Origin: Deferrisoma camini S3R1
Lineage (GTDB): Bacteria > Desulfobacterota > Deferrisomatia > Deferrisomatales > Deferrisomataceae
Assembly (NCBI RefSeq): GCF_000526155.1
Contig: NZ_JAFN01000001.1
Span: forward strand, 2,815,014-2,879,013
Direction of reading: 5' to 3'
DNA: 64,000 nucleotides
How positions within the stretch are numbered: position 1 is the first letter of the stretch; each line of letters starts with the position of its first letter. Shown one piece after another: positions 26,664-58,275 of the stretch. The position numbers and the translations under genes are program-made. The notes under the pieces are model-generated. The model saw nothing but the letters and a program-made list of their open reading frames with translations, was not told the origin of the DNA and did not search any database.

Positions 26664-26697
26664 AAGGGCCAGGCGGAAACGCCTGGCCCTTTTTTCT
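26664..26697 (+). terminator. Rho-independent terminator after tRNA-Ala
   Basis: A 10-bp stem GGGCCAGGCG / CGCCTGGCCC with a GAAA loop is followed by six T residues. It starts 13 nt after the tRNA 3' end and, with the promoter, makes the tRNA a single-gene unit. Confidence 0.92.
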
Positions 26698-50437: not shown

Positions 50438-50998
50438 ATGAGACGCGCGCTTCCGTTGTTGGTGCTCTTCCTGTTCGTGGCCGCGGGCGCGGCCTCCGCG
50501 GCCGAGCTGGCCGGGGTGCGGGTGCCCGACACGGTCACCGTGGAGGGCCACACCCTGCGGCTCCAGGGGCTCGGGCTCCGCAAGAAGTTCTTCTTCAAGG
50601 TGTACGTGGGCGCCCTGTACCTCACCACCCCCACCTCGGACGGGGCCGCGGCCATCCGGGCCGACGAGCCCAAGCGGATCTCCATGTACTTCCTGCGCGA
50701 CGTGGGCGGCGACAAGCTGCGCGACGCGTTCGAGGAGGGGTTCTTCAAGGCGGCCCAGGAGCGGCTCGACGCGCTTCGGGCCCGGATCGACCGGTTCCTG
50801 GCCCTGTTCCCCGACGAGGTGGAGGACGGCCAGGTGGTCACCCTCACCTACCTGCCCGGCCAGGGCACCGAGGTGGCCATCGCCGGCCAGGTGAAGGGCG
50901 TGATCGAGGGCAAGGACTTCATGGAGGCCCTGTGGGGCATCTGGCTCGGGGAGGTACCGGCCGACTCGCGGCTCAAGAAGGGGATGCTGGGGGGGTAG
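50438..50998 (+). CDS. Chalcone isomerase-like periplasmic protein
   Basis: The product is 186 aa from ATG 50438, with AAGGAGG 6 nt upstream. It has a signal peptide (LLVLFLFVAAGAASA) and the chalcone-isomerase-like fold marks LAGVRVPDTVTVEGHTLRLQ, GLGLRKKFFFKVYVGALYLT, ISMYFLRDVGGDKLRDAFEE, VTLTYLPGQGTEVAIAGQVK and EALWGIWLGEVPADSRLKKG. Bacterial members are exported and their function is not established. The gene is convergent with trpF and overlaps its 3' end by 26 nt. Confidence 0.87.
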   Translation: MRRALPLLVLFLFVAAGAASAAELAGVRVPDTVTVEGHTLRLQGLGLRKKFFFKVYVGALYLTTPTSDGAAAIRADEPKRISMYFLRDVGGDKLRDAFEEGFFKAAQERLDALRARIDRFLALFPDEVEDGQVVTLTYLPGQGTEVAIAGQVKGVIEGKDFMEALWGIWLGEVPADSRLKKGMLGG

Positions 50999-51614
50999 GG
51001 CAGCCGGCGTCCGCCGCCCGGACCGCCTCCAGGAACCGCCGGAGCCGGTCCGGGTCCTTCACGCCGGGCCGTGCTTCGGTGCCCGAGGCCGCGTCCACCG
51101 CCCAGGGCCGCACGGTGCGGATCGCCTCGGCCACGTTTTCCGGGGTGAGCCCTCCGGCCAGAACGATCCGGCCGTAGCGCCGGGCCTCCCGGGCCAGGCC
51201 CCAGTCGATGGTCCGGCCGGTCCCGCCGCCCGGCGCGTCGAGCAGGAACGCCGAGAGCCCCGGGTAGCGGCTCAACCGGTCCAGGTCGGCCGGGCCGGCG
51301 ATGCCCACCGCCTTGAGCACCGGCAGGCCCAGGGCCCGGATGTAGGCGGGATCCTCGTCGCCGTGGAGCTGGGCCAGGTGGAGCCCGCAGCCGCGAACCA
51401 GCCGGCGCACCTCGTCCACGGGCTGGTTCCGGAACACCCCCACGGCCGCCACGAACGGCGGCAGCTCCTCCACCACCCGGGCCACCACCTCGGGGTCGGC
51501 CGGCCGCTTCGTGCCCGGCGCGAACACGAACCCCAGGGCGTCGACTCCCAGGTCGGCCGCCAGCAGGGCGTCGTCCCGCCGGGTGAGGCCGCACACCTTG
51601 ACCCGGGTCCTCAT
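50973..51614 (-). CDS. trpF: Phosphoribosylanthranilate isomerase TrpF
   Basis: The product is 213 aa. RVKVCGLTRRDDALLAADLG carries the catalytic Cys, and FAPGTKRPADPEVV, GLHLAQLHGDEDPAYIRALG, FLLDAPGGGTGRTIDWGLAR with the catalytic Asp, and ILAGGLTPE-like IVLAGGLTPENVAEAIRTVR complete the barrel. It isomerises phosphoribosyl anthranilate. It is the last trp gene present, 139 bp after trpC across a repeat-bearing spacer; trpB and trpA are absent. Confidence 0.95.
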   Translation of the reverse strand: MRTRVKVCGLTRRDDALLAADLGVDALGFVFAPGTKRPADPEVVARVVEELPPFVAAVGVFRNQPVDEVRRLVRGCGLHLAQLHGDEDPAYIRALGLPVLKAVGIAGPADLDRLSRYPGLSAFLLDAPGGGTGRTIDWGLAREARRYGRIVLAGGLTPENVAEAIRTVRPWAVDAASGTEARPGVKDPDRLRRFLEAVRAADAGCPTPPASPS

Positions 51615-51640
51615 GGTTCACGGCCCCCGTGGGGCCGCGG

Positions 51641-51676
51641 GCTAGAAGGCTGGAACGCTAGAACGCTGGAAAGCCG
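51641..51676. repeat. AGGCTAGA-type tandem repeat between trpC and trpF
   Basis: CTAGAAGGCTGGAACGCTAG and following units form a degenerate 8-nt array in the 139-bp trpC-trpF spacer. The array may act in spacing or RNA structure; nothing else recognisable lies in the spacer. Confidence 0.65.
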
Positions 51677-51753
51677 GACCCGCGCGTGCCCCAGCCTCTT
51701 CCGCCCTCCCGCCCGGGGGATGGGCCGGACTCTGACGGGATCCGGGGTCGGCC

Positions 51754-52542
51754 TCATGGCCCGCGCTCCACGAGCGCGCGCAGGGCCGCGCCCGGGTCGG
51801 GCGCGGTCACCAGGGCCTCGCCGATCAGGAACGCCCGCGCGCCCTCGGCTTCCAGCAGGTCCAGGTCCCGGGCCGAGCCGAGCCCGCTCTCGCTCACCAC
51901 CACCCGGTCGGCCGGGATCCGGGGCAGGAGCCGTCGGGTCACCTCGATGCTCACCTCGAAGGTGGCCAGGTTCCGGTTGTTGATGCCCACGAACCGGGCC
52001 CCCGCGGCCAGGGCCGCGTCCAGCTCGTCGCCGTCGTGGACCTCCACCAGGGGCTCCACCCCCACCAGCCGGCACAGCTCCACGAACTCGCCCAGGCGCG
52101 GGCCCAGCACCGCCGCGATCAGGAGCACCAGGTCCGCGCCCCAGGCCCGGGCCTCCCACACCTGGTAGGGGTCGATCACGAAGTCCTTCCGGAGCACCGG
52201 AAGGTCCACGGCCCCGCGCACGGCGCGCAGGTCCTCGAGGCTGCCCCCGAAGAAGTCGGGCTCGGTCAGCACCGACACGGCGAACGCGCCGGCCTCGGCA
52301 TAGGCCCGGGCCAGGCCGGCCGGGTCCAGGTCGGGGCGCAGGTCGCCCTTGGACGGGCTGCGGCGCTTCACCTCGGCGATCACGGCCCGGCGGTCGGGGG
52401 GCCAGGATGCCAGCCGCTCCAGGGGGTCGGCCCCCCGGCGGCGGGGCCCGCACCGGTCCCACAGGAACTCCAAGGGCACCTTCTCCTGGGCCTCGTCCAC
52501 CCGCCGGCGGCGGGCCGCCACAATGCGGTCAAGGATCGTCAT
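51754..52542 (-). CDS. trpC: Indole-3-glycerol-phosphate synthase TrpC
   Basis: The product is 262 aa from ATG 52542. [20 protein letters not shown] holds the catalytic Lys, followed by [80 protein letters not shown] and [17 protein letters not shown]. It closes the indole ring. Its ATG overlaps the trpD stop (ATGA). Confidence 0.96.
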
Positions 52543-53597
52543 CGGTTCGTGATCTCCACGAGCTGCTCCAGCTTCTGGAGGGCCCGGCCCGAGTCGATGG
52601 CGTCCTGGGCCATGCGGATGCCCCACATCAGGTCCTTGGTGGCCCCGGCCACCAGCAGGGCCGCGCCCGCGTTCAGCAGCACCACGTCGCGGCGGGGCCC
52701 CTTCTCTCCCTCCAGGATCGACCGGACGATCCGGGCGTTCTCCTCGGCGTTGCCGCCGTGGATCGCCTCGGGGGGCGCGGTGCGAAGCCCCAGCTCCTCG
52801 GGGTGCAGGTCGAACTCCTCCACCGAGCCGTTGCGGAGTTCGGCCACGTGGGTGGGCCCGGTGATCGTGATCTCGTCGAGCCCGTCCGACCCGTGGACCA
52901 CGAACGCCCGCTCGCTCCCCAGCCGCTGGAGCACCCGGGCCAGCTTGCCGGTGAGGTCCCTCCGGTAGACCCCGAGCACCTGGCGGCTGGCCCCGGCCGG
53001 GTTCGTGAGGGGGCCCAGCACGTTGAACACGGTGCGGATCCCCATCTCCCGGCGCACCGGGGCCACGTGACGCATGGCCGAGTGGAGGAGCGGCGCGTAC
53101 AGGAACCCGATGCCGATCTCCCGGATGCAGGTCTCCACCACCTCGGGGGTCACGTCCAGGTTCACGCCCAGGGCCTCCAGCACGTCGGCGCTGCCGCACC
53201 GGCTCGACACGGCCCGGTTGCCGTGCTTGGCCACCCGAACCCCGGCCGCGGCCACCACCAGGGCCGTGGTGGTGGAGATGTTGAAGGTGTTGGTGTCGTC
53301 GCCGCCGGTGCCGCAGGTGTCCAGGATGGACTCGTACTCCACGTTGATCTCGTCCCGGTCGAGGGTCAGCACCTCCTTGCGGGGCTCCACCCGGATGGGG
53401 GTGGCGTGCTCCCGCATCACCCGGGCGGCACCGGTGATCTCCTCCACGGTCTCGCCCTTGATCCGCAGGGCGGTCAGGAACGCGGCCATCTGGGCGTGGG
53501 TGGCCTCGCCCCCCATGATGGCCTCCATGGCCTCGATCATCTCCCCCTCGGTCAGGTCGCGGCCCTCGACGAGCTTGTGGATCAGTTCCTTGAACAT
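52539..53597 (-). CDS. trpD: Anthranilate phosphoribosyltransferase TrpD
   Basis: The product is 352 aa. [20 protein letters not shown] is the phosphoribosyl-pyrophosphate loop, followed by [20 protein letters not shown] and [20 protein letters not shown]. It joins phosphoribose to anthranilate. No glutaminase domain is fused; that activity is the separate TrpG. It overlaps trpC by 4 nt and is separated from trpG by a 414-bp repeat-filled spacer. Confidence 0.96.
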
Positions 53598-54011
53598 GAG
53601 ATCTCTCCTGTGAAGGCTTGAAGGCTAGGAGGCTGGAAAGCTCCATCAGACCCCTGGGGGCCCTAAACGGGAAGGGCAACTTTCGTTGGTCCGGGCCCAT
53701 TGCCGGCGGCGGGGCATGGGGCCTGCTTCCGGCCGGGCGCGAGTGCAGCATCCGATCGCCGCGCCTTCGCATGCCGTCGCCGAAGCGGCTTGTTCGGGCG
53801 ACGACAGCGGAGGGCCCTGGAATTCGACAAAGCTACGGATGTTCGGGGGGCGCGGCGAGCCAAGGAGCCGCGCCCGGCGCTCCAGCAGGCCCCATGCCCC
53901 CCCGAGACCCTGAGGTGACGCTAAAGAGGTGTACCCATGCTTGGAACGCTGGGAGATCACGGAGGTTTTCAAGCGTCCTAGCGTCCCAGCCTTCCGGCCT
54001 CCCAGCCGATC
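53598..54011. repeat. 414-bp trpG-trpD spacer with a 190-bp foldback element (53711-53900)
   Basis: A perfect 16-bp terminal inverted repeat GGGGCATGGGGCCTGC bounds 53711-53900; similarity of the two ends continues for about 15 more bases (GGCCGGGCGCG and, on the other side, GCGCCGGGCGCG). AGGCTAGA-type units flank it at 53608-53642 and 53960-54003. Outside the left arm, GGAAGGGCAACTTTCGTTGG matches the complement of the sequence right of 56473. No gene is present, so it interrupts an otherwise compact operon. Confidence 0.75.
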
Positions 54012-54581
<570 letters not shown>

Positions 54582-54638: not shown

Positions 54639-56114
54639 TCACTCCGGCTCCAGGCCGCGGGCCGCGAGCTCCAGGGCCCGGCGGAGCGCGGCGGACTTGT
54701 GGAGCGTCTCCTCGTACTCGAACGCCGGGTCCGAGTCGGCCACGATGCCGGCCCCGGCCTGGGCCACCACCCGCCCGCCCCGGAACGCCAGGGTGCGGAT
54801 CGTGATGCAGGTGTCCATGTTGCCGTCGAACCCCAGGTAGCCCACGGCCCCGGCGTACACCCCCCGCTCCCGGGGCTCGAGCCGGGCGATCCACTCCATG
54901 GCGCGCACCTTGGGCGCGCCCGACACCGTGCCGGCCGGGAACGTGGCGGCCAACACGTCCAGGGCGTCCACCCCGGCCCCCAGCTCGGCCGACACCGTGG
55001 ACACGATGTGCATCACGTGGGAGTAGCGCTCCACCACGAACGACTCCTCCAACCGCACCCCTCCGGGCGCGGCCACCCGCCCCAGGTCGTTTCGGCCCAG
55101 GTCCACCAACATCAGGTGCTCGGCCCGCTCCTTCTCGTCGGCCAGCAGCTCCCGTTCCAGGGCCCGGTCCTCCTCGGGCGTGGCGCCCCGGGGCCGGGTG
55201 CCGGCGATGGGCCGTACCAGGGCCCGGTTCCCCTCCTTCCGAACCATCACCTCCGGGCTCGCCCCCACCAGGACCTCCTCGCCCAGGGCCAGGTGGAACA
55301 GGTACGGGCTGGGGTTCAGGGCCCGCAGGGCTCGGTAGGCCGTGAACGGATCGACCCCGCACGGCCCCTCGAACGGCTGGGACAGCACCACCTGGATCGC
55401 CTCGCCGGCGTGGATCGCCTCGCGAACCCGGACCACCATGGCCTCGAACCGCTCCCGGGGGATCACCGGTTCGAGCTCCGGCGGGGGCACCGCCTCCGGG
55501 TACACCCGGGCCTCGTCCAGGGGGATGCGCAGCCGGCCGAGCAGGTCCCCGATCCGGCCGAGGCCGTCGTCGTACCCCTCGCCCCGGCCGGGCCGCACCA
55601 GCACGATCACGTCCAGGGTCTTTCGCACGTTGTCGAAGGCCAGGAGGCTGCGGGGGGCGAACAGCCGCAGGTCCGGCAGGCCCATGGGCTCGGGCTCGCC
55701 GGCCGGGATCCGCTCGAACAGCCGGGCCGCGCCGTACCCCACGTACCCCACCAGCCCCCCGGCGAAGCGGGGGAGCCCCTCCACCCGGGGCATCCGGTGG
55801 TCCGCCAGCACCTGCCGGAGCAGGTCCAGCGTGGGCCCCTCGGTGCGGCCGTGGCAGCCGTCCTCCACCCACGAGCGTTCCCCCCTCGCCTCGAACCGCA
55901 GGAACGGGTCCAGGCCCACCAGGGAGTACCGGCCCCACCGGCTTCCGCCCTCCACGCTCTCCAGCAGGAACGACCAGGGCCCGTCCGCCACCTTCAGGTA
56001 CGTGCTCACAGGGGTCTCGGTGTCGGCCGGAAGCCGCGCCGCCACCGGCACCACCGGGTGGCTGCGGGCCATGCGGTCGAACTGGGATCGCTCCACCAGA
56101 ATTCGTGCGGCCAT
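54639..56114 (-). CDS. trpE: Anthranilate synthase component I TrpE
   Basis: The product is 491 aa from ATG 56114, with CTGGAGAAACGATCC before it. The N-terminal region contains SFLLESVEGGSRWGRYSLVG, the LLES motif of tryptophan feedback sites. The chorismate-binding domain carries GEAIQVVLSQPFEGPCGVDP, EVLVGASPEVMVRKEGNRAL, RPIAGTRPRGATPEEDRALE, MLVDLGRNDLGRVAAPGGVR, FPAGTVSGAPKVRAMEWIAR and GAGIVADSDPAFEYEETLHK. With TrpG it forms anthranilate from chorismate. The spacer upstream of it contains a MITE-like element starting 20 nt before the start codon. Confidence 0.96.
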   Translation of the reverse strand: MAARILVERSQFDRMARSHPVVPVAARLPADTETPVSTYLKVADGPWSFLLESVEGGSRWGRYSLVGLDPFLRFEARGERSWVEDGCHGRTEGPTLDLLRQVLADHRMPRVEGLPRFAGGLVGYVGYGAARLFERIPAGEPEPMGLPDLRLFAPRSLLAFDNVRKTLDVIVLVRPGRGEGYDDGLGRIGDLLGRLRIPLDEARVYPEAVPPPELEPVIPRERFEAMVVRVREAIHAGEAIQVVLSQPFEGPCGVDPFTAYRALRALNPSPYLFHLALGEEVLVGASPEVMVRKEGNRALVRPIAGTRPRGATPEEDRALERELLADEKERAEHLMLVDLGRNDLGRVAAPGGVRLEESFVVERYSHVMHIVSTVSAELGAGVDALDVLAATFPAGTVSGAPKVRAMEWIARLEPRERGVYAGAVGYLGFDGNMDTCITIRTLAFRGGRVVAQAGAGIVADSDPAFEYEETLHKSAALRRALELAARGLEPE

Positions 56115-56133
56115 GGATCGTTTCTCCAGCGAG

Positions 56134-56215
56134 TTATACCAAGTTGCGTTCAAAGCCGTCAGGCCCCTTGCCCCGGCCGCCGGATGGATCTTGGTTTGAA
56201 CGCAACTTGGCATTA
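56134..56215. mobile_element. MITE-like element, short version
   Basis: Arms ATACCAAGTTGCGTTCAAA at 56136-56154 and its near-perfect complement at 56195-56213 flank 40 bp. Read on the complement, the interior (AAGATCCATCCGGCGGCCGG, then GGCAAGGGGCCTGACGGC) matches the left and right borders of the interior at 21347-21595, with the centre missing. It sits between the trp attenuator and trpE. Confidence 0.75.
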
Positions 56216-56225
56216 CCGCTTGACG

Positions 56226-56600
56226 GCGGGAAGGCCAGAAGGCTGGAAGGCCAGGAGGCTAGAAGGCTTGAAAGCCTCCCGGATTCCCGCACGTTCTAGG
56301 AACCACCATACCTCGTCGCCTCCACCTCACGGTCCGGGGGGCATGGGGATCAGGGGTCAGAGGACAGATGTCAGTGGACGGGTCGTGGTCCCACGACGCC
56401 GCTGTAGCCACAACGTCTTTGCCTTTCTTTTGGCTCCTGTCCCCTGAATTCTGGCTCCTGAAACCCATGCCCCGCCGCCGGCAATGAGCCCCGGACCCAC
56501 GCAAGTTACCCTTCCCGTCGTTGTAGGGTCCCGCAGGGACCAGAAGGGGCTTCCCACCGGCAGGTTGGAAGGCTGCCGTCTCCGCTTCGGCCCAACGCAA
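56226..56600. repeat. Repeat-filled trp leader distal region with a foldback (56337-56473)
   Basis: 56226-56275 is an AGGCTAGA-type array. 56276-56345 matches 6975-7045. 56337-56473 is a foldback with arms GGGGCATGGGGATCAGG and, on the complement, GGGGCATGGGTTTCAGG; its interior has GATCAGGGGTCAGAGGACAG and, inverted, CCTGTCCCCTGAATTCTGGC. 56474-56525 matches the complement of 53660-53710. No coding gene is seen. The region would be transcribed as part of the trpE 5' leader. Confidence 0.65.
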
Positions 56601-56672
56601 CGAGGGCCGCGGTCTCCCGCGGCCCTCGTCCGATACGAAAGCGCCGCGGGCAGCTCGGGCTGCCCGCGGCGC
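56601..56672 (-). terminator. trp attenuator hairpins
   Basis: On the transcript, a 13-bp perfect stem GCGCCGCGGGCAG / CTGCCCGCGGCGC (56641-56672) is followed after 12 nt by a 12-bp stem CGAGGGCCGCGG / CCGCGGCCCTCG with a GAGA loop (56601-56628). The 3' arm of the first (CCCGCGGC) can instead pair with the 5' arm of the second (GCCGCGGG). That is the antiterminator/terminator choice expected of attenuation. The second stem lacks a clear U-run (TTGCGTTG follows), which is odd. Confidence 0.7.
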
Positions 56673-56701
56673 GCTCTACCCACTGGGGAAAACGGCGGCG
56701 G

Positions 56702-56764
56702 TCAGCCCCGGTTCACGGGCCACCACCACCAGCCGGTCGTCCGAATCGTCGTCACCTGCGCCAT
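56702..56764 (-). CDS. trpL: trp leader peptide TrpL
   Basis: The product is 20 aa, MAQVTTIRTTGWWWWPVNRG, with four consecutive Trp codons (UGG). A GGGGAGAGAG ribosome site lies 4-13 nt upstream of ATG 56764. The stop codon is 29 nt before the first hairpin of the attenuator. Ribosome stalling at the Trp run when charged tRNA-Trp is scarce would favour transcription into trpE. The length, codon run and position are those of classical leader peptides. Confidence 0.9.
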   Translation of the reverse strand: MAQVTTIRTTGWWWWPVNRG

Positions 56765-56789
56765 GCGTCTCTCTCCCCGTTGCCGGCCG

Positions 56790-56818
56790 ACCCTACCAGC
56801 GAGCCGGGTCCCCGTCAA
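56790..56818 (-). promoter_or_regulatory. trp operon promoter
   Basis: On the minus strand TTGACG (56818-56813) and TAGGGT (56795-56790) are separated by 17 bp. The predicted start is near 56783, about 20 nt upstream of the trpL ATG. The promoter lies in the 56-bp gap after nuoN, starting 3 nt from the nuoN stop. No TrpR-like operator palindrome is evident. Confidence 0.7.
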
Positions 56819-56820
56819 GG

Positions 56821-58275
56821 CTACACCAGGTAGCGCAGGGCCTGCTCGGCCAGGTCCACCAGGCCGCCCGGCACGATGCCGAAGTACAGCACCCCCAGGC
56901 CGGCCAGGATCGTGGCCACCGCCATGGACGGGCCGGCGCGCAGGGCCTCGACCACGGGCGTGTCCGGCTCGGGCTTGAAGTACATCGTCACGATCACCCG
57001 CAGGTAGTAGTACACGCTGGCCGCCGAGTTCAGCACACCGAAGATCGTGAGCCAGTAGTACCCCTGGTGCACGGCGGCCTTGAAGATCAGGAACTTGCCG
57101 ATGAACCCGGCCGTGGGCGGGATGCCGGCCATGGAGAACATGAACAGGCTCATCGCGAGCCCCAGGGCCGGGAACTTGAAGCCCAGCCCGGCGAACGCGT
57201 CCAGCTCGGTGTTCTCGTGGCCCTTGCGGCCCACCATGACCAGGCAGGCGAACGCGCCGATGTTCATGAAGGCGTAGGCCAGCAGGTAGTACAGGATGCC
57301 GGCCCCGGCCTCGGGCGTGCCCGCCACCACGCCCACCAGGATGTACCCGGCGTGGGCGATGGACGAGTAGGCGAGCATGCGCTTCACGTCGGTCTGGGCG
57401 ATGGCCGTCAGGTTGCCCAGGGTCATGGTCAGCAGCGCCAGCACCCACAGTACCCCGCTCCAGTCCACGTGCAGGGTCTGGAACGCCACGAAGAACACCC
57501 GCAGCACGGCGGCGAACGCAGCGGCCTTCACCCCGGTGGCCATGAACGCCGTCACCGAGGTGGGCGCGCCCTGGTACGCGTCGGGGGTCCACATGTGGAA
57601 CGGCACCGCGGCCACCTTGAACGCGAACCCCACGGTCACCAGGCCCACCCCGGCCAGGGCCATGGGCGACCCGGCCAGGGCCCGGTTCGAGGCGAACGCG
57701 TCCAGGATGCCCTGGATCTCGGTGGTGCCGCAGGCACCGTACAGCAGCGCGATGCCGTACAGCAGGAACCCGCTCGAGAACGCCCCCAGGATGAAGTACT
57801 TGAAGCTGGCCTCGGCCGAGCGCTCGTCCCGGAAGAACCCGGCCAGGGCGTAGATGGCGATGCTCATGGTCTCCAGGGCCAGGAACACGCTCATCAGGTG
57901 GGTGGCCCCGGCCATCAGCATCATGCCCACCAAGGCCAGCAGCACCAGGGCGTAGTACTCGGCGTGGTCTCGCCCCTCGTCCCGCAGGTACGCGTCGCTC
58001 ACCAGCAGGGTCAGGGCGCCGACCGCGTACAGGATGAAGTACACGAACGCGGCGAACGCGTCGCCCGCCAGCATGCCGGAGAACCCGCTGCGAGCCGGCC
58101 CGAACAGCCCCGGCGTGGTGAACGCGGCCACCACGATCCCCGCGATGCCCAGGTACGGCAGGTACCCCTTGCGCCGGCCCGGGCTCACCGCCTCGGCGAG
58201 CAGCACCAGCAGGGCCGCCGCCGTGATCACCAGGTGCGGCGTCAGCAGTCGCATGTCGGCCATGGAGAACGTCAT
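56821..58275 (-). CDS. nuoN: NADH-quinone oxidoreductase subunit N
   Basis: The product is 484 aa from ATG 58275, with AGAAGAGGTG upstream. It is an antiporter-like subunit with about 14 membrane helices; conserved charged segments include MSVFLALETMSIAIYALAGF (Glu in TM5), VGFAFKVAAVPFHMWTPDAY (Lys in TM7) and TDVKRMLAYSSIAHAGYILV. It is one of the proton-pumping membrane subunits of complex I. It is the last nuo gene; the trp promoter begins right after it. Confidence 0.96.
   Translation of the reverse strand: MTFSMADMRLLTPHLVITAAALLVLLAEAVSPGRRKGYLPYLGIAGIVVAAFTTPGLFGPARSGFSGMLAGDAFAAFVYFILYAVGALTLLVSDAYLRDEGRDHAEYYALVLLALVGMMLMAGATHLMSVFLALETMSIAIYALAGFFRDERSAEASFKYFILGAFSSGFLLYGIALLYGACGTTEIQGILDAFASNRALAGSPMALAGVGLVTVGFAFKVAAVPFHMWTPDAYQGAPTSVTAFMATGVKAAAFAAVLRVFFVAFQTLHVDWSGVLWVLALLTMTLGNLTAIAQTDVKRMLAYSSIAHAGYILVGVVAGTPEAGAGILYYLLAYAFMNIGAFACLVMVGRKGHENTELDAFAGLGFKFPALGLAMSLFMFSMAGIPPTAGFIGKFLIFKAAVHQGYYWLTIFGVLNSAASVYYYLRVIVTMYFKPEPDTPVVEALRAGPSMAVATILAGLGVLYFGIVPGGLVDLAEQALRYLV

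Follow-up and report, generated by a model that had tools for sequence, protein, structure and literature searches.

The window, a stretch of 64,000 nucleotides from Deferrisoma camini S3R1, carries a trp gene cluster on its minus strand, and the stretch of interest lies between nuoN (56821-58275) and trpE (start at 56114). An earlier note on this DNA described here a promoter-like TTGACG-17-TAGGGT, a ribosome site, a 20-codon ORF with four consecutive UGG codons and two strong GC stems, all upstream of a trp operon. Each of these elements is found again in our analysis, and the identities of trpE, trpG, trpD, trpC and trpF were checked with NCBIfam models. The trpA gene is about 1.4 Mb distant from the trpEGDCF cluster.

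50973..54581, minus strand: trpG, trpD, trpC and trpF (NCBIfam)
54639..56114, minus strand: trpE, first structural gene of trpEGDCF (NCBIfam TIGR00564, 514.7 bits, cut-off 517.7)
56702..56764, minus strand: predicted trpL leader peptide MAQVTTIRTTGWWWWPVNRG, 20 codons and stop, read from the sequence; the closest genome (G001) has an identical peptide, and leaders with WW/WWW occur in the order and the wider phylum
56773..56778, minus strand: Shine-Dalgarno-like GGGGAG, 8 nt 5' of the leader ATG
56790..56818, minus strand: predicted leader promoter, with TTGACG at 56818-56813, a 17-nt spacer and TAGGGT at 56795-56790

Transcription from the predicted promoter would be expected to start at about 56783. 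The TAGGGT hexamer has three of six matches, and a promoter scan with a 9/12 cut-off did not call the leader promoter. Because the scan called nothing, the evidence for this promoter is its conservation: TTGAC-N17/18-TAnnnT is also legible at the equivalent place in six relatives from the same order (L004-L009). The four consecutive TGG codons lie at 56731-56720. The leader ORF forms the 3' end of a 296-amino-acid shadow frame on the same strand, which the earlier note inaccurately called antisense to nothing annotated; the frame overlaps nuoN in another reading frame.

Paired segments of the trp leader

The leader can be divided into six segments, listed here in the direction of transcription.

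56717..56730, minus strand: segment 1, includes the UGG run; partner is segment 2 (protector hairpin 1:2)
56694..56708, minus strand: segment 2, with the leader stop codon inside it; partner is segment 3 (antiterminator 2:3)
56659..56672, minus strand: segment 3, left arm of hairpin A; the 2:3 pairing also takes in part of the loop, to 56657
56641..56654, minus strand: segment 4, forms the right arm of hairpin A; the weak U-tract UUUCGUAU comes next, and 56650-56643 can bind segment 5
56617..56629, minus strand: segment 5, forms the left arm of hairpin B; partner of segment 4 through 56623-56616
56600..56612, minus strand: segment 6, forms the right arm of hairpin B; its tail is no real U-tract in the genus of the window but is one in most relatives

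Hairpin A (3:4) is a perfect 14-bp stem (56672-56641, -33.7 kcal/mol) and hairpin B (5:6) is a perfect 13-bp stem (56629-56600, -30.3 kcal/mol). They are two of only eight perfect stems of at least 10 bp in the 64-kb window, and the 225-nt leader folds with z = -4.3 (0 of 200 shuffles equally stable). Segment 2 (56708-56695, GGGCTGACCGCCGC) is 86% complementary to segment 3 (56670-56657) over 14 nt, and the 2:3 pairing folded alone reaches -33.0 kcal/mol, about equal to hairpin A. The 1:2 hairpin is made by the UGG run itself (-27.6 kcal/mol). The alternative pairing proposed in the earlier note, between CCCGCGGC (56650-56643) and GCCGCGGG (56623-56616), also exists and joins hairpin A to hairpin B. 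However, it is the second switch (4:5); the main antiterminator 2:3 and the 1:2 hairpin had been missed. The 4:5 stretch folds at -23.5 kcal/mol versus -30.3 kcal/mol for hairpin B. The leader, both hairpins, the 2:3 pairing and the conservation of these elements are established by the sequence and its comparison with relatives.

The 1:2, 2:3 and 3:4 pairings are mutually exclusive, as in a leader-peptide attenuator, and the window also holds the pairing set of a his-type attenuator (A:B, C:D and E:F versus B:C and D:E). The six segments would adopt two exclusive states, 1:2 with 3:4 and 5:6 (OFF) or 2:3 with 4:5 (ON). When Trp-tRNA is ample, the ribosome would read the four UGG codons, arrive at the stop codon inside segment 2 and block 2:3; hairpins 3:4 and then 5:6 would form, and transcription would stop before trpE. 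When Trp-tRNA is scarce, the ribosome would stall on the UGG run and cover segment 1, leaving segment 2 to pair with segment 3. Segment 4 would then be released and catch segment 5 as the latter emerges, hairpin B would be prevented as well, and with both hairpins avoided RNA polymerase would continue into trpE. In our model of the window, a ribosome placed on the fourth Trp codon still leaves segment 2 fully free. Equilibrium folds with a stalled ribosome favor hairpins A and B at every modelled ribosome position, so antitermination would have to be kinetic. Ribosome stalling, the order of events and actual termination at the two hairpins in D. camini are what we infer from these pairings.

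Attenuation of trpEGDCF by ribosomes translating Trp codons is strongly supported by these features. We further consider it likely that the attenuator works through the six-segment relay, and the two linked hairpins probably switch the trp genes off when tryptophan is plentiful. The control by charged tRNA-Trp claimed in the earlier note is supported as far as the Trp-codon attenuator is concerned; its mechanism had been read incompletely, with a his-type relay in place of the usual trp layout.

Relatives, terminator tails and the spacer to trpE

In the closest genome, which belongs to the same genus (G001), the leader peptide is identical to that of the window. At least three Trp codons are clustered in each of eight further order members whose leader could be read (L004-L011). 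The UGG run, whose loss in close relatives the earlier note had set against its own reading, is kept wherever the leader of a close relative could be read. Both hairpins are also kept in most of the order relatives with a readable leader. Some relatives (L013, L014 and L020) have a single hairpin only. Hairpin B lacks a U-tract in L004, L007 and the window and has a good one in L006 and L008-L011, and the 4:5 pairing is almost absent in L009 and L010. In L004, L005 and L007, the leader ATG lies just 7-8 nt past the predicted -10 box, so that translation of these peptides may begin on leaderless transcripts.

The hairpins of the window have strong stems and weak U-tracts (UUUCGU after hairpin A and UUGCGUUG after hairpin B), and most relatives have good U-tracts. 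Termination at either hairpin in this genome, where the tails are weak, is here presumed. Another strong hairpin of the window, at 26664-26691, has a T run directly after it. The distance from the leader stop codon to the trpE start is 584 nt in the window and 836 nt in G001, versus 139-157 nt in L004-L007, and the longer distance in the genus of the window lies in DNA that carries dispersed repeats. These differences could mean that the element is decaying in this genus, with weak U-tracts and 480-830 nt of repeat-bearing DNA before trpE, which may use another promoter. Both the weak tails and the long spacers favor such decay; however, the peptide is identical in two species and all the pairings are intact despite the length divergence of the adjoining spacer, and we regard decay as improbable.

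Two repeats were noted in the spacer. An inverted pair of TTTGAACGCAACTTGGTATAA lies at 56133-56216, immediately upstream of trpE. This 21-mer has 54 copies in the genome (at most 2 mismatches), many of them as inverted pairs 60-270 bp apart, an arrangement suggestive of a small inverted-repeat mobile element that entered the DNA between the attenuator and trpE. A second dispersed repeat, CTTCTAGCCTCCTGGCCTTCC, lies at 56229-56265 and has 58 genome copies (at most 3 mismatches). Where other genes of the trp cluster adjoin, ORF translations contain text that resembles CTTCTAGCCTCCTGGCCTTCC.

The two-hairpin element across the phylum

TrpE was searched in 297 genomes, 122 upstream regions were read and 58 were inspected as leader candidates. 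Most of the 58 have a dense Trp run, and more than 30 have two tandem hairpins, both with the core GCCGTGG or GCCGCGG (GCCGYGG). Terminators with the GCCGTG core are rare in the eight genomes searched, with few sites per genome apart from trpE. Eight of the nine non-trpE sites that were fetched have an amino-acid-rich leader upstream or an amino-acid gene downstream. Among these sites, the gene for 2-amino-3,7-dideoxy-D-threo-hept-6-ulosonate (ADH) synthase follows a Phe/Tyr leader, that for DAHP synthase a Tyr/Phe/Trp leader, that for a TrpB-like enzyme a tandem element, and leuA follows Leu-rich leaders.

The stems covary strongly, a property that the earlier note had named as a check on its reading. 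In a 28-sequence alignment of hairpins A and B, 94.4% of cells are paired and 12 of the 20 pairs have changed on both sides (0 of 500 shuffles). A covariance model of the two-hairpin element built from this alignment matches 123 of 198 genomes in this phylum (taken to be Desulfobacterota = Thermodesulfobacteriota) at E ≤ 1e-4, often with 2-7 matches per genome; at E ≤ 1e-8, about 80 genomes have a match, as counted from the table. The element in the window is the sole match in its own genome. Desulfatibacillum alkenivorans has six matches, some of them weak, with the same coordinates as in the phylum genome G046. No match reaches 1e-8 in 23 outgroup genomes (those of 40 reached through named records, their outgroup status judged from record titles), where the best lie at 1e-5 to 1e-4.

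At 84 of the 90 family matches read, W, F/Y/W or I/L/V residues are densely clustered in a short upstream ORF, versus 4.2% in dinucleotide shuffles, and two of the remaining six are Leu-rich leaders marginally below the threshold. The genes that follow family elements are mostly trp, DAHP-synthase, ADH-synthase, aminotransferase, leu or ilv genes. Representatives identified with NCBIfam include both DAHP synthase types, ADH synthase, a TrpB-like enzyme, a PLP aminotransferase, acetolactate synthase, 2-isopropylmalate synthase and 3-isopropylmalate dehydrogenase; periplasmic binding proteins were found downstream with Pfam. The type of leader agrees with the gene: W runs precede trpE, trpB-like genes and some DAHP synthases, F/Y runs precede ADH synthase, DAHP synthase and aminotransferase, L runs precede leuA and leuB, and I/V runs precede ilvB.

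Some further elements were noted beside these. Five of them (L299, L324, L323, L328 and L347) have F/Y or I runs before transport- or catabolic-type genes, namely periplasmic binding proteins, acyl-CoA dehydrogenase, and metallo-beta-lactamase-fold and phenylacetate-CoA-ligase-like proteins, the last two judged by eye; transport or catabolic genes may be attenuated there. Leader peptides of the trp loci L079 (G076), L125 (G040), L131 (G252), L119 (G137), L016 and L074 have C-terminal patterns in common, e.g., NNWWWWNLxGRxxRR, or GEVRPP in others; the probable reason is that the coding region contains segment 2. The Leu-rich leaders before leuA in L239 and L240 have one GCCGTGGG-core hairpin and represent a one-hairpin relative of the family. 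Core variants occur in L274, L263 and L280, with CCGCAGG in place of CCGTGG, and in L274 both hairpins are changed together. Two Granulosicoccaceae MAGs (L172 and L174) have short WRW leaders before trpE with no terminator visible.

The core is very alike across operons for different amino acids, beyond the needs of pairing. A protein, either NusA or a specific RNA-binding regulator, might recognize the GCCGYGG hairpins and set termination, with a minor role for the leader peptide. In some Gammaproteobacteria, the rimP leader has tandem hairpins with a conserved motif, and NusA was suggested as the factor (PMC2965389). That leader resembles the element described here in having two tandem terminators with related motifs and differs in having no leader peptide and in the suggested role of NusA. 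Recognition by a protein seems very improbable for the present family, given the cognate leader codons in 84 of 90 matches and the concerted core changes (CCGCAGG in both hairpins of L274), which fit pairing and misfit a fixed binding site.

The 2:3 pairing is specific to the individual element: among 118 elements it has a mean of -24.1, and permuted partners give -17.4 ± 0.3 (0 of 2000), a comparison confounded by GC content and relatedness. For the 4:5 pairing, the mirror pairing 3:6 serves as the control: if the two hairpins merely shared a core, 4:5 and 3:6 would be equally good. Among 123 elements, the mean is -16.3 kcal/mol for 4:5 and -14.5 kcal/mol for 3:6, and 4:5 is better in 77 elements versus 32 for 3:6 (p = 2.6e-7), where the elements are related and the arms were delimited by an algorithm. 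Clustering at 62% identity lumped nearly all elements into one group, so averages per taxonomic family were used instead, and these also favor 4:5 (26 vs 7, p = 0.001). In 45 mostly trp leaders, 4:5 is no better than 3:6 (Wilcoxon p = 0.41), and the asymmetry emerged only in the larger set of 123. The direction of core-to-core transitions does not separate the two pairings (16 vs 8, p = 0.15), nor do the core columns of the seed alignment (93.9% vs 96.4%). Individual elements also bear on this comparison. Hairpin A has a mismatch in L289, L327 and L290, and hairpin B has one in L281 and L300, with 4:5 intact in all five. In D. alkenivorans, the Phe leader L347 has differing cores; 4:5 persists there via G-U pairs, and 3:6 would break. 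Hairpin A lacks any U-tract in the Phe/Tyr group before ADH synthase (L237, L238, L268, L270 and L273), which rules it out as a terminator there; a link between the leader and terminator B could then be made by 4:5 alone. Statistical support for selection on the 4:5 pairing comes from the RNA family as a whole. Since the trp subset alone shows no asymmetry, the relay in the window is proposed from the family together with the pairing potential of the window itself.

The trp subset also leaves room for a plain four-segment trp attenuator, in which A is the sole switch and B a backup that terminates without regulation and with a constant leak; the core would then be shared through common descent or because such a terminator sequence is preferred. 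Several relatives have hairpin A alone, and in the window the stability of B exceeds that of 4:5; both points favor this layout. The bias to 4:5 over 3:6 across the family speaks against it, as do the single cases in which A or B is broken and 4:5 is intact, the ADH-synthase group, where A without a U-tract cannot be the switch, and the rarity of the GCCGTG core in eight genomes, with eight of nine non-trpE sites at a leader or an amino-acid gene. We therefore judge the four-segment layout unlikely and retain the six-segment relay as the preferred reading.

No regulatory family reaches the Rfam gathering score in 40 family loci. In the window stretch, searched at E up to 10, Rfam gives only chance matches, without Trp_leader RF00513, His_leader RF00514 or T-box. 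Vitreschak and Lyubetsky have reportedly carried out comparative studies of proteobacterial attenuators. In the literature outside subscription papers, we met no published account of this RNA family, and searches on deltaproteobacterial attenuators or on tandem leader terminators returned nothing that bore on it. We lean, with some reserve, to the view that the elements form one phylum-wide RNA family that is in none of the RNA libraries checked. A single relay cassette, with two GCCGYGG-core hairpins, would couple Trp, Phe/Tyr, Leu and Ile/Val leaders to at least eight kinds of genes, and specificity would shift when the leader ORF and segment 2 are exchanged next to a constant 3-4-5-6 relay.

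Known attenuators and implications

Like the E. coli trpL attenuator, the leader in the window lies upstream of trpE and combines a Trp-codon leader peptide with a 1:2 protector, a 2:3 antiterminator and a predicted 3:4 terminator. E. coli trpL has two UGG codons, whereas the window has four adjacent ones, a stop codon inside segment 2 and an extra hairpin 5:6 linked by 4:5. The trp attenuators of Actinobacteria have UGG repeats, GC-rich terminators and a conserved complementary triple common to antiterminator and terminator (Seliverstov et al. 2005, PMC1262725). UGG repeats, GC-rich terminator stems and complementary segments are shared with the window, but theirs is a triple (2-3-4) with one terminator, whereas the window has a chain through six segments.

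The closest likeness in logic is with the Salmonella his attenuator (segments A-F), in which a stalled ribosome permits B:C and D:E and the terminator E:F is blocked (PMC4046918); the trp leader of the window would follow the same relay. It differs in the amino acid and the operon, in the middle hairpin, which often has its own U-tract and so gives two terminators in series, in the GCCGYGG core shared by both hairpins, and in having no sequence match to Rfam His_leader. In a his-type attenuator only the last hairpin terminates. This is the arrangement of the ADH-synthase group and not that of most members, where, as in the window, hairpin A has a (weak) U-tract as well.

By itself, the trp attenuator of D. 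camini would be an ordinary new member of its class. The two-hairpin relay, in contrast, occurs in most of the searched genomes of a large and ecologically important phylum; many amino-acid operons there are preceded by it, and Rfam lacks it. If this reading is true, it would allow the prediction, in one step, of dozens of leader peptides that lack annotation and of the regulation tied to them in sulfate- and metal-reducing bacteria. The his-type relay, a single case in textbooks, would then appear as a reusable cassette, which would make the evolution of attenuator specificity testable.
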